Positions 3,600 to 37,560 of a DNA stretch of 64,000 bases are shown one piece after another (the stretch's first letter is position 1; every line of letters starts with the position of its first letter). The notes under the pieces were generated by a model. That model made no database searches. It saw nothing but the letters and a program-made list of their open reading frames with translations, and was not told the DNA's origin. Location of the stretch: NCBI RefSeq assembly GCF_004803405.1, contig NZ_SSXI01000233.1:1-64000 (forward strand). Reading direction: 5' to 3'. A program made the translations under genes and the position numbers. This stretch comes from Nocardioides sp. Its GTDB lineage: Bacteria; Actinomycetota; Actinomycetes; Propionibacteriales; Nocardioidaceae.

Positions 3600-4396
3600 C
3601 CACCGGCGTCCCGCCAGCCCGTGTCGAGCCCGTCGTGGCCGTGCGCGGCCATCAGCGACAGGCCGCCGTCGACGACGTACGACGACCCGGTCACGTACGA
3701 CGAGCGCGGGGACACCAGGAACTCGATCACCGATGCGACCTCGTTGACGTGACCGGGTCGCCCCGCCGGGTTGCCCGGCCGACTCTCGTGGAAGGCCTGG
3801 GCCTCCTCCTGCCCGGTCATCGGCGTGGAGATCTCACCCGGGGCGACGGCGTTGACGGTGATGTCGTGCTCGGCGAGCTCCAGGGCGAGCACCTTCGTCA
3901 GCATGCCCAGGCCGGCCTTGGCGGTGCAGTACGCCGCCGCGCCGTACCGCGGCAGGTGCTCGTGGACGCTGGTGATGTTGACGATCCGGCCGCCGTGCCC
4001 GCCGGCGATCATGATCCGCGCGGCTCGCTGGGCGCACAGGAACGGTCCGTCGAGATCGGTGGCGAGCACGTGCCGCCAGGTCTCGAGCGACAGGTCGGTG
4101 ATCCGGTCGGTGTGGCCCGTGCCGGCGACGTTGACCAGCACCCCGAGGCCGCCGAGCTTCTCGGCGAGGCGGTCGACCACCTCGCCCGCGTCGGGACGAG
4201 ACGCCTCGAACGGCTCCGTGAACGCGTGCCGGCCGCGCGCCTCCACGGCGGCGACGGTGTCACGCAGCCCCGCCACGTCCCGGTGGCAGGTCAGCCCGAC
4301 GTCGAACCCCTCGGTCGCCAGCAGCTCCGCAGTGGCCTTGCCGATGCCGGAGTCACTGCCGGTGACGATCGCCTTGCGCGGGAATCTGTCGCTCAT
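3596..4396 (-). CDS. Classical short-chain dehydrogenase/reductase (SDR)
   Basis: A 266-residue Rossmann-fold oxidoreductase. It has the cofactor motif TGSDSGIG at 13-20, an NVAG motif in place of the usual NNAG, a serine in ITSVHEH and the catalytic pair in YCTAK. The C-terminal SSYVTGSSYVVDGGLSL is typical of 3-oxoacyl-reductase-like SDRs that use NAD(P)H. The substrate cannot be assigned. The N-terminal hydroxyl-dehydrogenase-like pattern resembles bacterial sugar or acyl alcohol dehydrogenases. The gene is divergent from the SEC-C/YchJ gene, with 34 bases between starts, and convergent with the lactone oxidase. The ATG start at 4396 is preceded by a TACCCG hexamer six bases away, a weak leaderless-type -10. 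Confidence 0.85.
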   Translation of the reverse strand: MSDRFPRKAIVTGSDSGIGKATAELLATEGFDVGLTCHRDVAGLRDTVAAVEARGRHAFTEPFEASRPDAGEVVDRLAEKLGGLGVLVNVAGTGHTDRITDLSLETWRHVLATDLDGPFLCAQRAARIMIAGGHGGRIVNITSVHEHLPRYGAAAYCTAKAGLGMLTKVLALELAEHDITVNAVAPGEISTPMTGQEEAQAFHESRPGNPAGRPGHVNEVASVIEFLVSPRSSYVTGSSYVVDGGLSLMAAHGHDGLDTGWRDAGG

Positions 4397-35135: not shown

Positions 35136-35753
35136 TCAGGCGCCAGGCGCCCCGGGCACGCCGTGCGCGACGACGCCCTCGGCGACCTGACGCATCGACA
35201 TCCGCAGGTCCATCGCCGTCTTCTGGATCCACCGGAAGGCCTCCGGCTCGGTCAGTGACAGCTGCTCCTGGAGGATCCCCTTCGCCCGGTCGATCGCCTT
35301 GCGGGTCTCCAGCCGCTCCTTGAGGTCGGTGATCTCCTCCTCCAGCTGGGCGATCTCGGCGAACCGGCTGACCGCCATCTCGATCGCAGGCACCAGGTCG
35401 GATTGGGTGAACGGCTTGACCAGGTAGGACATGGCCCCCGCCTCCCGTGCCCGCTCCACCAGCTCGCGCTGAGAGAAGGCCGTGAGCATCACGACGGGTG
35501 CGATCCGCCTGCCGGCGATCGCCTCGGCGGCCGAGATGCCGTCGAGCACAGGCATCTTCACGTCGAGGATCACCAGGTCGGGCCGGAGCCGCTCCGCGAG
35601 CTCGATCGCCTGCTGGCCGTCGCCGGCCTGCCCCACGACGTCGTACCCCTCCTCGGCCAGCATCTCGGCGAGGTCCATCCGGATCAGGGTCTCGTCCTCT
35701 GCGATGACCACGGTGCGTGGCGCGATCAGCGGGGTCGGGGCGGTCTCGGTCAC
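35136..35753 (-). CDS. pdtaR: ANTAR-domain response regulator (PdtaR-like)
   Basis: A 205-residue two-domain regulator. The receiver domain (about 10-130) has the acidic pocket in IAEDETL, the phosphorylated Asp64 in VILDVKMP and the conserved Lys in LVKPF. The C-terminal ANTAR domain (about 140-200) contains ETRKAIDRAKGILQEQLSLTEPEAFRWIQK. ANTAR proteins bind paired RNA hairpins and prevent transcription termination. The mycobacterial homologue responds to the kinase PdtaS; no such kinase lies in this window. GTG at 35753 has TAGTCT six bases upstream (35760-35765), so the mRNA is predicted leaderless. Confidence 0.92.
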   Translation of the reverse strand: MTETAPTPLIAPRTVVIAEDETLIRMDLAEMLAEEGYDVVGQAGDGQQAIELAERLRPDLVILDVKMPVLDGISAAEAIAGRRIAPVVMLTAFSQRELVERAREAGAMSYLVKPFTQSDLVPAIEMAVSRFAEIAQLEEEITDLKERLETRKAIDRAKGILQEQLSLTEPEAFRWIQKTAMDLRMSMRQVAEGVVAHGVPGAPGA

Positions 35754-35864: not shown

Positions 35865-35937
35865 GCCCCGGTAGCCCAACGGCAGAGGCAATGTGCTCAA
35901 ACCACATCCAGTGTGAGTTCGAATCTCACCCGGGGCA
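35865..35937 (+). tRNA. tRNA with anticodon CAA (nominal tRNA-Leu) but a short class-I variable loop
   Basis: A 73-base cloverleaf. The acceptor stem is GCCCCGG (35865-35871) with CCGGGGC (35930-35936), seven perfect pairs. The D arm is GCC/GGC with GG in the loop. The anticodon stem ATGTG/CACAT encloses loop CTCAAAC, with anticodon CAA at 35898-35900. The variable loop is only five bases (CCAGT). The T arm GTGAG/CTCAC has loop TTCGAAT. The discriminator is A937; no CCA is encoded. Every stem pairs without mismatch. CAA should read the leucine codon UUG, but bacterial tRNA-Leu normally has a long variable arm, so its charging identity is an open question. It stands between pdtaR and pyk. Confidence 0.9.
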
Positions 35938-36009
35938 CGAGATGTCAGGGAGGGCCTGACGTCACTCGGTCCTTTCGGCCCAGTGGGCCCGGTGGCCCGC
36001 TGATCGACG
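35938..36009 (-). terminator. Region after pyk with nested inverted repeats
   Basis: GTCAGG-gaggg-CCTGAC (35944-35960) is a compact hairpin. A wider pair, CTGACGTC (35956-35963) with GACGTCAG (36006-36013), spans the gap and touches the pyk stop. Together they probably end pyk transcription. Confidence 0.4.
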
Positions 36010-37482
36010 TCAGCGCGCGTGGCCGAGCCGCTTGTAGGCGGGCGCGACCTCGTTGATCGCATCGCCCATCCGGTGCACGCGCAGCGCGTTGGTGGATCCG
36101 GGGATGCCCGGCGGGCTGCCGGCCACGATGACGACGAGGTCGCCCTCCTTGACCCGCCCGATGCGCAGCAGCTCCTCGTCGACCTGGCGGACCATCTCGT
36201 CGGTGTGCTCGACCGTGGAGGTCTTGAAGGCCTCGACGCCCCAGGTGAGGGCGAGCTGCGAGCGTGCGCGCGCCTCGGGAGTGAACGCGAGCACCGGGAT
36301 CGGGCTGCGCAGTCGCGCCAGCCTGCGAGCGGAGTCGCCGGACTGGGTGAACGCCACGACGTACTTCGCGCCGACCCGCTGCGCGACCTCCTCGGCAGCC
36401 TTGGTGATGACGCCGGCACGGGTGTGCGGGTCCCACTCGATCCGGCCGAACCGGCTGAAGGTCTCGTCGGCCAGCGCGTGCTCCTCGGTCGCCGCGATGA
36501 TCCGCGCCATGGTCTCGACCGTGTGGATCGGGTGCTCCCCCACGCTCGTCTCACCCGACAGCATGACCGCGTCGGCGCCGTCGAGGACGGCGTTCGCGAC
36601 GTCACTGGCCTCGGCGCGGGTCGGCGCGGGGCTGGTGACCATCGACTCCAGCATCTGGGTCGCCACGATGACCGGCTTGGCGTTCCGGCGCGCGGCGACG
36701 ATGACCTGCTTCTGCAGGAAGGGCACCTCCTCCAGCGGACACTCCACGCCCAGGTCGCCGCGAGCCACCATGAACCCGTCGAACGCCTGGATGACCTCGT
36801 CGAGGTTGTCGATCGCCTGCGGCTTCTCGATCTTCGCGATCACCGGCAGCATCACGCCCACCTCGCGCATGATCTTGCGGACGTCCTCGGCGTCGCCGGC
36901 GTGCCGCACGAAGCTCAGGGCGATGAAGTCGACGCCCAGGCGCAGGGCGAACCGCAGGTCCTCGGCGTCCTTGTCCGAGAGGGCGGGCACGGAGACCGCG
37001 ACCCCCGGAAGGTTGATGCCCTTGTTGTTGCTCACCTTGCCGGCGACGAGAACCTCGGTGACGACGTCGGTATCGGTCACCTCGACGACACGCAGACGAA
37101 CCTTGCCGTCGTCGATCAGGATCGGGTCGCCGGGTGCGACGTCGCCCGGAAGTCCCTTGTACGTCGTCCCACTGATCTCGGCGTTGCCGTCGACGTCGCG
37201 GGTGGTGATGGTCCACCGCTGGCCACGCTTGAGGGCAACCGGTCCGCCGGAGAAGGTCTCGAGGCGGATCTTCGGACCCTGGAGGTCGGCGAAGATGCCG
37301 ACGCCGTGCCCACTGGCGTCGGAGGCCTCACGAACCAGGCGGTAGACCTCGGCATGCTGCTCGTGGGTGCCGTGGCTCATGTTGAGCCGGGCGACATCCA
37401 TCCCGGCGTAGACCAACTCCCGGATACGGCGCTCGGAACTGGTGGCCGGACCCAGGGTGCACACGATCTTTGCTCTTCGCAC
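36010..37482 (-). CDS. pyk: Pyruvate kinase
   Basis: A 490-residue glycolytic enzyme that converts phosphoenolpyruvate and ADP to pyruvate and ATP. It opens [37 protein letters not shown]. The substrate/metal site is [22 protein letters not shown], followed by [19 protein letters not shown] and the cation site [11 protein letters not shown]. The C-terminal allosteric domain is present. GTG at 37482 is preferred over the in-frame GTG at 37491: it gives the family start [13 protein letters not shown], and TAGGGT (37490-37495) ends seven bases before it. An upstream CATCGGCGCA repeat sits near the expected -35 position. Confidence 0.96.
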
Positions 37483-37489
37483 GGGGTTC

Positions 37490-37495
37490 ACCCTA
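37490..37495 (-). promoter_or_regulatory. -10 element of pyk, leaderless type
   Basis: TAGGGT on the minus strand, seven bases before the GTG start. With a 17-base spacer the -35 position (37513-37518) would abut the first CATCGGCGCA copy. Confidence 0.5.
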
Positions 37496-37504
37496 GCGAG
37501 CCGC

Positions 37505-37560
37505 CATCGGCGCAGAACGTCGCATCGGCGCAAACTTCGTGTGAAGTCTGCGCCGATGCG
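37505..37560. repeat. Three-copy CATCGGCGCA element and 40-bp hairpin between gltD and pyk
   Basis: CATCGGCGCA occurs at 37505-37514, again at 37523-37532, and inverted at 37549-37558. The second and third form most of an 18-bp stem (37521-37538 with 37543-37560) with one mismatch (37533/37548) and loop GTGT. It lies 12 bases after the gltD stop and can terminate gltBD. The first copy overlaps the pyk promoter. Confidence 0.75.

Follow-up and report, generated by a model that had tools for sequence, protein, structure and literature searches.

A long variable arm, the class II shape, is one of the criteria by which a bacterial tRNA-Leu is known, and what has been described of its recognition makes this arm dispensable in at least one case. 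In the passages of PMC9976931 that deal with identity, E. coli leucyl-tRNA synthetase (LeuRS) depends on A73, the A15-U48 pair, G18G19 and A20a and does not need the long arm, and A73 and A14 are named as determinants of human mitochondrial tRNA-Leu. PMC6582537 notes a tRNA-Leu(TAG) with a short loop among the clustered tRNAs of a mycobacterium, and PMC11541572 gives long loops to tRNA-Leu 2, 3 and 5 of M. tuberculosis, which suggests that the other leucine tRNAs of this species lack them. Here we describe a tRNA-Leu(CAA) gene of the class I shape, with a short variable loop, in the soil bacterium Nocardioides sp. It lies at positions 35865-35937 of a stretch of 64,000 nucleotides (contig NZ_SSXI01000233.1 of assembly GCF_004803405.1), which as a whole is called the window. 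Our comparisons show that in relatives this tRNA and a class II tRNA of the same function replace each other in place, and a putative homing endonuclease gene behind the tRNA is the likeliest driver of the exchange.

The tRNA and its amino acid

The window holds a genuine class I tRNA with anticodon CAA, the parts of which are listed here; the rows are the leucine tRNA sequences compared below, and R1 is the family model built from them.

35865..35937, + strand: class I tRNA-Leu(CAA), 73 nt, no encoded CCA (ARAGORN, Rfam, covariation in 69 relatives, family model R1 99.1 bits)
35878..35885, + strand: D loop AACGGCAG with the leucine determinants A14, A15, G18G19 and A20a (determinants in 90/90 class I rows)
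35898..35900, + strand: anticodon CAA within the loop CTCAAAC (ARAGORN, anticodon at position 34; sequence)
35908..35912, + strand: variable loop CCAGT, 5 nt, its last base U48 pairing with A15 (sequence; U48 in 90/90 class I and 32/32 class II rows)
35937, + strand: discriminator A73 (A73 in 90/90 class I rows)

ARAGORN reads 35865-35938 on the plus strand as tRNA-Leu(CAA), and the Rfam tRNA model (RF00005) matches 35865-35937 with 54.1 bits (E 2.3e-10). Read from the sequence, the acceptor stem has 7/7 pairs and the anticodon and T stems 5/5 each, whereas in the D stem three pairs form and C13.A22 is mismatched. An earlier interpretation made from these letters without database searches, here the sequence-only reading, had called all stems perfect, which is true of every stem but this one. 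The 13.22 mismatch is common to 5/5 leucine tRNAs of the genome and is thus a leucine-like trait and not a flaw. The same reading had correctly identified the anticodon and its loop, the class I shape with a short variable loop, and the absence of an encoded CCA (A73 is followed by CGAG). With a variable loop of 5 nt in place of the long arm, the gene is filed as a class I leucine tRNA and not as a class II tRNA-Leu. Among the 69 distinct class I sequences, 99.4% of the stem cells are paired and 17/20 pairs have changed on both sides; none of 500 shuffles was as high on either measure, and the class I leucine tRNA structure therefore lies beyond chance. A mis-set anticodon loop is ruled out by its five-pair stem, which is preserved through compensatory changes.

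In order to see which amino acid such a tRNA would carry, we compared 90 class I and 32 class II tRNA-Leu sequences read by ARAGORN, picked by their anticodon-based name and with repeats of the same gene included. The 90 class I rows carry CAA, UAA or UAG and include one odd CAA row (L159), which the 69 distinct sequences exclude, and a tRNA with a four-base anticodon call (L158) is not counted; both are described below. U8, A14, A15, G18, G19, A20a, U48 and A73 are present in 90/90 class I rows, and the window tRNA has the determinants of a bacterial tRNA-Leu (A73, A14, A15-U48, G18G19 and A20a) together with its leucine anticodon. In its own genome, the combination of A15, U48 and GG-N-A20a is found in 5/5 leucine tRNAs and 0/40 others; A15 with U48 alone occurs in 7/40 non-leucine tRNAs. 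Because the family joins leucine anticodons to the known LeuRS determinants in 90/90 rows, the window tRNA almost certainly carries leucine. Simple trimming of the long arm was considered as the origin of the class I shape and is ruled out, as the differences between the two shapes extend beyond the arm: class II and class I rows have different acceptor stems and different D stems, and position 9 is A instead of G in 88/90 class I rows.

The assembly of the window's own genome is a draft of 334 contigs and 99.98% complete. Rfam finds 45 tRNAs in it, all of which ARAGORN reads (45/45), and five are leucine tRNAs. Those with GAG and CAG are class II; those with CAA (window), UAA (C327) and UAG (C129) are class I and make up 3 of the 5 isoacceptors. 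Among the 45 tRNAs we found no class II tRNA with anticodon CAA, UAA or UAG, and the second CAA tRNA of class II shape that the sequence-only reading proposed to look for is not among them. One protein matches LeuRS above the NCBIfam cut-off, at 901.6 bits. Two candidate explanations of an odd tRNA were rejected here: a second LeuRS serving such tRNAs, as the four other matches score only 46-72 bits, and an extra copy beside a normal class II tRNA, as the window tRNA is the sole CAA tRNA and the shapes are exclusive in the genus. UUG is rare, as that reading had said, and is nevertheless used: 32 window open reading frames, picked by composition, contain 39 UUG, 1 UUA and 9 CUA in 14,164 codons. 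The fact that three of five isoacceptors are class I, with no class II copy of their anticodons and one LeuRS over the cut-off, suggests that the window tRNA, the genome's only CAA tRNA, is a housekeeping decoder of UUG as leucine. The regulatory role that had been proposed for it finds no support, since it is the sole CAA tRNA and UUG is used, and nothing regulatory was noticed at the locus, where no dedicated test was run.

Two further calls in this genome deserve mention. ARAGORN reports a 93-nt tRNA-Arg(CCG) at window positions 4190-4282 on the minus strand, which is not among the 45 Rfam tRNAs and is probably false. The sole tRNA-Gln(UUG) (C121:2014-2092; L147 64-143, minus strand) matches Rfam only weakly, at 41.1 bits, and nine bases make up its variable region; it is either an odd tRNA or a borderline gene.

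The covariance model R1 was built from the 69 sequences, that of the window among them. In the window's genome the class I leucine tRNAs score 99.1 (window), 85.7 and 83.6 bits with it, and no other tRNA exceeds 57.7 bits. At E <= 1e-16 it matches 125/396 sampled genomes of the phylum, in 66/245 genera. The phylum loci newly fetched by R1 have a leucine anticodon in 29/29 cases (CAA 17, UAA 12), a result that is not fully independent because R1 scores the anticodon too. The sequence-only reading had held that many members already described would speak against it; members are indeed many in sequence data, but in print we found only one passage on a bacterial tRNA-Leu with a short loop, in PMC6582537.

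Leucine tRNAs of the class I shape are found in plasmid-collection records and in phages as well, with anticodon UAG in a mycobacteriophage and UAA in an Enterococcus phage. Lactobacillus phage LP65 (L155 304-647) has three, with UAA, UAG and CAA, annotated as plain tRNA-Leu. A Tsukamurella plasmid (L156 1001-2074) has a class I tRNA-Leu(CAA), and a site-specific integrase gene starts about 15 nt beyond it, which makes this a possible vehicle. The odd row among the class I sequences comes from a Ruminococcus albus plasmid (L159 912-988), where a tRNA-Leu(CAA) whose D arm resembles that of class II, but whose variable loop has only six bases, adjoins a class I tRNA-Leu(UAA); here the arm seems to have been lost separately. 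A Mycobacterium riyadhense plasmid (L158 1001-1078) encodes a class I leucine-type tRNA with an enlarged anticodon loop, in which ARAGORN calls a four-base anticodon (caaa).

Two shapes exchanged at one locus

As the sequence-only reading had it, the tRNA stands alone between pdtaR and pyk, and Pfam confirms both neighbours.

35136..35753, - strand: pdtaR-like ANTAR response regulator, left neighbour (Pfam Response_reg 99.2 bits, ANTAR 80.3 bits)
36010..37533, - strand: pyruvate kinase (pyk), right neighbour (Pfam PK 393.8 bits, PK_C 108.5 bits)
35938..36009, no strand: spacer from the tRNA to pyk, empty here; site of a LAGLIDADG-type gene in 47/98 congeneric genomes (no match in own genome; no GTCGGTG in the spacer)

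We counted the shapes of the CAA tRNA over 98 congeneric genomes with core patterns for each shape, which may miss diverged tRNAs. The raw matches were class I in 61/98 and class II in 38/98, with one genome matching both. ARAGORN was used to check only three doubtful or sample matches, and of these the class II match in G023 and the second class I match in G486 are not tRNAs, while the first match in G486 is one. This leaves 61 genomes with class I, 37 with class II, none with both and none with neither. The patterns give a similar picture for tRNA-Leu(UAG), with class I in 39 genomes, class II in 57, both in 0 and neither in 2; a common upstream gene group is found at 17/21 UAG loci inspected, nine of them class I and eight class II. 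A class I UAA match is present in 89/98 genomes, and no class II UAA match was seen in the 98, although the patterns can miss diverged tRNAs.

Whether or not the two shapes of the CAA tRNA occupy the same place can be judged from 80 loci fetched by pdtaR similarity. Two of them (L018 and L073) have no tRNA in the stretch and were left out of the tree; the other 78 have 49 class I and 29 class II tRNAs, on the same strand except in two cases (Kribbella). pyk was matched in 66/78 of these loci, several stretches being cut. On a tree of pdtaR and Pyk that includes the window, the distribution of shapes needs 20 changes, 15 of which are forced by supported branches. Shuffled shape labels need 23.8 changes on average and were as low as observed in 23/500 cases, so shape follows descent only weakly. 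In an alignment of close relatives the upstream flank is common to both shapes and the downstream flank varies with shape. Comparison of these genomes thus shows that the CAA tRNA has two alleles of equal function, class I and class II, either of which can stand where the other stood.

A LAGLIDADG-type gene behind the tRNA

In many relatives the tRNA is followed by a gene of about 240-260 codons, whose product has an N-terminal helix-turn-helix and two LAGLIDADG-like motifs. At E <= 1e-10 it is found in 47/98 congeneric genomes, 24 with class I and 23 with class II tRNAs. All of its 48/48 matches lie directly downstream of tRNA-Leu(CAA) on the same strand, 66-657 nt from the tRNA core, and none lies elsewhere in the genus; decayed copies of the gene also occur. 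The motif aspartates D71 and D171 are invariant in 35/35 aligned proteins. A structure model of the protein (mean pLDDT 92, pTM 0.81) has I-Tsp061I as its top Foldseek match (E 1.5e-7, TM-score 0.48 by query length), with I-AniI, I-SceI and I-DmoI also in the list, and searches of NCBIfam and PDB sequences with the protein returned nothing useful. On this modelled fold the gene looks like a putative free-standing LAGLIDADG-type homing endonuclease. The window has the tRNA but not the gene, which was either lost or never there.

Beyond the genus, the gene profile matches 24/296 genomes of the phylum. Twenty of these loci were fetched. In 17 a tRNA-Leu(CAA), of class I in 4 and of class II in 13, lies no more than about 110 nt away, before or behind the gene. 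Of the other three, one lies beside a tRNA-Trp, and in the two from genus g12 (L230, L231) the gene stands divergent beside a class II tRNA-Leu(UAG), not CAA. Genus g11, with eight fetched loci, four class I and four class II, is a second lineage with both shapes. A tRNA transcript running on into the endonuclease gene was considered, and is weakened by hairpins with T runs after them, seen by eye, between the two at several g11 loci.

The N-terminal part of the protein is of two types, and these track the shape of the tRNA: among typed loci, 16/16 with type A have a class II tRNA and 20/21 with type B a class I tRNA. This count excludes five Kribbella-type loci that hold both types, and it includes near relatives, which are not independent. 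The combined labels can be placed with 6 changes on a tree built from the catalytic part, where shuffles require 12.9 and none of 200 was as low; in this tree L094 is labelled type B and is in fact type A, and L012 and identical proteins were left out. The linkage is most visible in L003 and L004, sister loci of which the first has a class II tRNA with type A and the second a class I tRNA with type B. Their upstream 600 nt are mostly 91-94% identical, falling to 68% in the last 100 nt; the tRNAs are 65% identical and the next 500 nt 32-55%, after which identity is back at 76-96% over some 1,800 nt that take in the remainder of the gene and pyk. The profile of L004 and L008 is similar. Judged from these alignments, the exchanged piece in both pairs is the tRNA with the 5' part of the gene, bounded by common flanks. 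Twelve pairs were profiled in all: two have the same shape with the gene in both partners, one (L003/L008) sets class II against class II, and in most of the remaining pairs one partner is without the gene, while L017/L054 and L033/L071 align poorly downstream. Kribbella has a single tRNA slot, flanked by a type B gene on one side and a type A gene on the other. It is filled by a class I tRNA heading the B gene in L074, L076 and L077 and by a class II tRNA heading the A gene in L075 and L079; no type B gene was seen in L079.

The motif GTCGGTG occurs in the 90 nt behind the tRNA in 25/39 loci with the gene and 0/36 without it (shuffle expectation 0.35 and 0.34; L001-L103, leaving out three loci with <60 nt downstream). 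It may be the gene's own control or a candidate binding site.

Competing explanations and known systems

Our favoured explanation, which we regard as probable though well short of secure, is that the window encodes a working class I leucine tRNA that is swapped with a class II allele, with the homing endonuclease gene as the likeliest driver. LeuRS would charge the tRNA through A73, A14, A15-U48, G18G19 and A20a without requiring the missing arm, and the tRNA, as the genome's sole CAA isoacceptor, would decode UUG as leucine. The endonuclease would cut a tRNA-Leu gene that lacks its cassette. Repair would then copy the cassette in, and the differently built tRNA that it brings would restore decoding and escape the cut. 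Homing would thus be the engine, and the differently built tRNA both substitute and protection. As a tentative extension, which is possible and which we would sooner doubt than accept, two selfish endonuclease lineages may each carry a tRNA of one shape as a replacement part and cut the other shape, so that the struggle between them repeatedly switches an essential actinobacterial tRNA from one structural class to the other; class I would have spread since it is unrecognised by the rival enzyme.

A number of observations weigh against the homing explanation. Both leucine charging and cutting are predictions. The gene has no match in the window's own genome and is missing from 51/98 congeneric genomes, and no copy was found at the tRNA-Leu(UAG) loci of the 98 genomes of the genus. 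As to the identity of the protein, the Foldseek list also contains WhiA, a regulator with the LAGLIDADG fold, and only one of four proteins passes the Pfam LAGLIDADG_3 cut-off of 22.5 (27.9 bits, the others 16.5-18.2). The linkage of type and shape has an exception in L045, where a class I tRNA goes with type A, and in Kribbella the tRNA has open genes of the "wrong" type next to it (type A by class I in L076 and L077, type B by class II in L075). Furthermore, a tract ending inside the gene rests on two profiled pairs, L003/L004 and L004/L008.

The main rival is that ordinary homologous recombination with incoming DNA replaces the tRNA in place, the endonuclease gene being a passenger behind tRNA-Leu genes. 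We think this unlikely, although it is supported by the UAG tRNAs, which come in two exclusive shapes, mostly in common surroundings, with the gene near none of them in the genus; the gene is therefore unneeded for some swaps. The 51 genomes without the gene also speak for recombination, as does the presence of class I leucine tRNAs on phages and plasmids, in one case next to an integrase gene. Against it stand the linkage of the N-terminal type to the tRNA shape, the finding of the gene in the genus solely behind tRNA-Leu(CAA), and the inclusion of the gene's 5' part in the exchanged tract. An ancestral duplication, in which an ancestor had both tRNAs at the locus and each lineage lost one, is improbable: the Kribbella slot between type B and type A genes does look as if two divergent cassettes had met, but both shapes are together in 0/98 genomes, sister loci differ in shape with 15 changes forced, and the two-tRNA state would have to last to the tips of the tree and yet never be sampled. 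Finally, that the tRNA is charged with another amino acid, the second of the two alternatives posed by the sequence-only reading, or acts as a missense suppressor or regulator at UUG, can draw on the class I shape and on the rarity of UUG in the window, and is nonetheless highly implausible given the leucine determinants in 90/90 rows, the lack of another CAA tRNA in the genome, the one-for-one exclusion with a class II leucine tRNA, and the altered proteome that most of the genus would have to bear; the first alternative, a leucine tRNA of odd shape, is strongly favoured by the determinants and by this one-for-one replacement.

If the homing explanation is right in linking the endonuclease to the exchange, a selfish element swaps an essential RNA for a structurally different substitute. 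Independently of that link, three of the five leucine isoacceptors of a free-living bacterium are without the long arm, and their family extends over nearly a third of the phylum genomes sampled. The frequent evolutionary loss and return of the long arm makes its role in tRNA-Leu testable. For annotation, a class I tRNA with a leucine anticodon is not necessarily a pseudogene or a misread one. In our searches of open-licence PMC papers, subscription papers not being covered, we found no account of class I leucine tRNAs as the sole isoacceptors of a bacterium, and none of an endonuclease gene linked to them.

Of the known systems, the class II bacterial tRNA-Leu(CAA) is the closest, sharing the anticodon, A14, A15-U48, G18G19, A20a, A73, the 13.22 mismatch and, in relatives, the locus; it differs in a variable loop of about 15 bases, compared with 5 here. 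The tRNA-Leu(TAG) of the mycobacterial cluster (PMC6582537) is likewise actinobacterial and has a leucine anticodon and a short variable loop, but it is an extra copy beside a long-armed one, whereas the window tRNA is the only one of its anticodon. Animal mitochondrial tRNA-Leu is also without the long arm and is recognised via A73 and A14, according to PMC9976931; it belongs to an organelle, whereas the window tRNA keeps an intact cloverleaf and comes from a free-living bacterium whose LeuRS is bacterial. The neighbouring gene resembles LAGLIDADG homing endonucleases (the I-DmoI, I-SceI and I-AniI folds) in its fold, in two motifs with conserved aspartates, in its presence or absence at one site and in its decayed copies. 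It differs from them in standing behind a tRNA gene and in an N-terminal helix-turn-helix of two types that track the shape of that tRNA, and cutting is in its case only putative.
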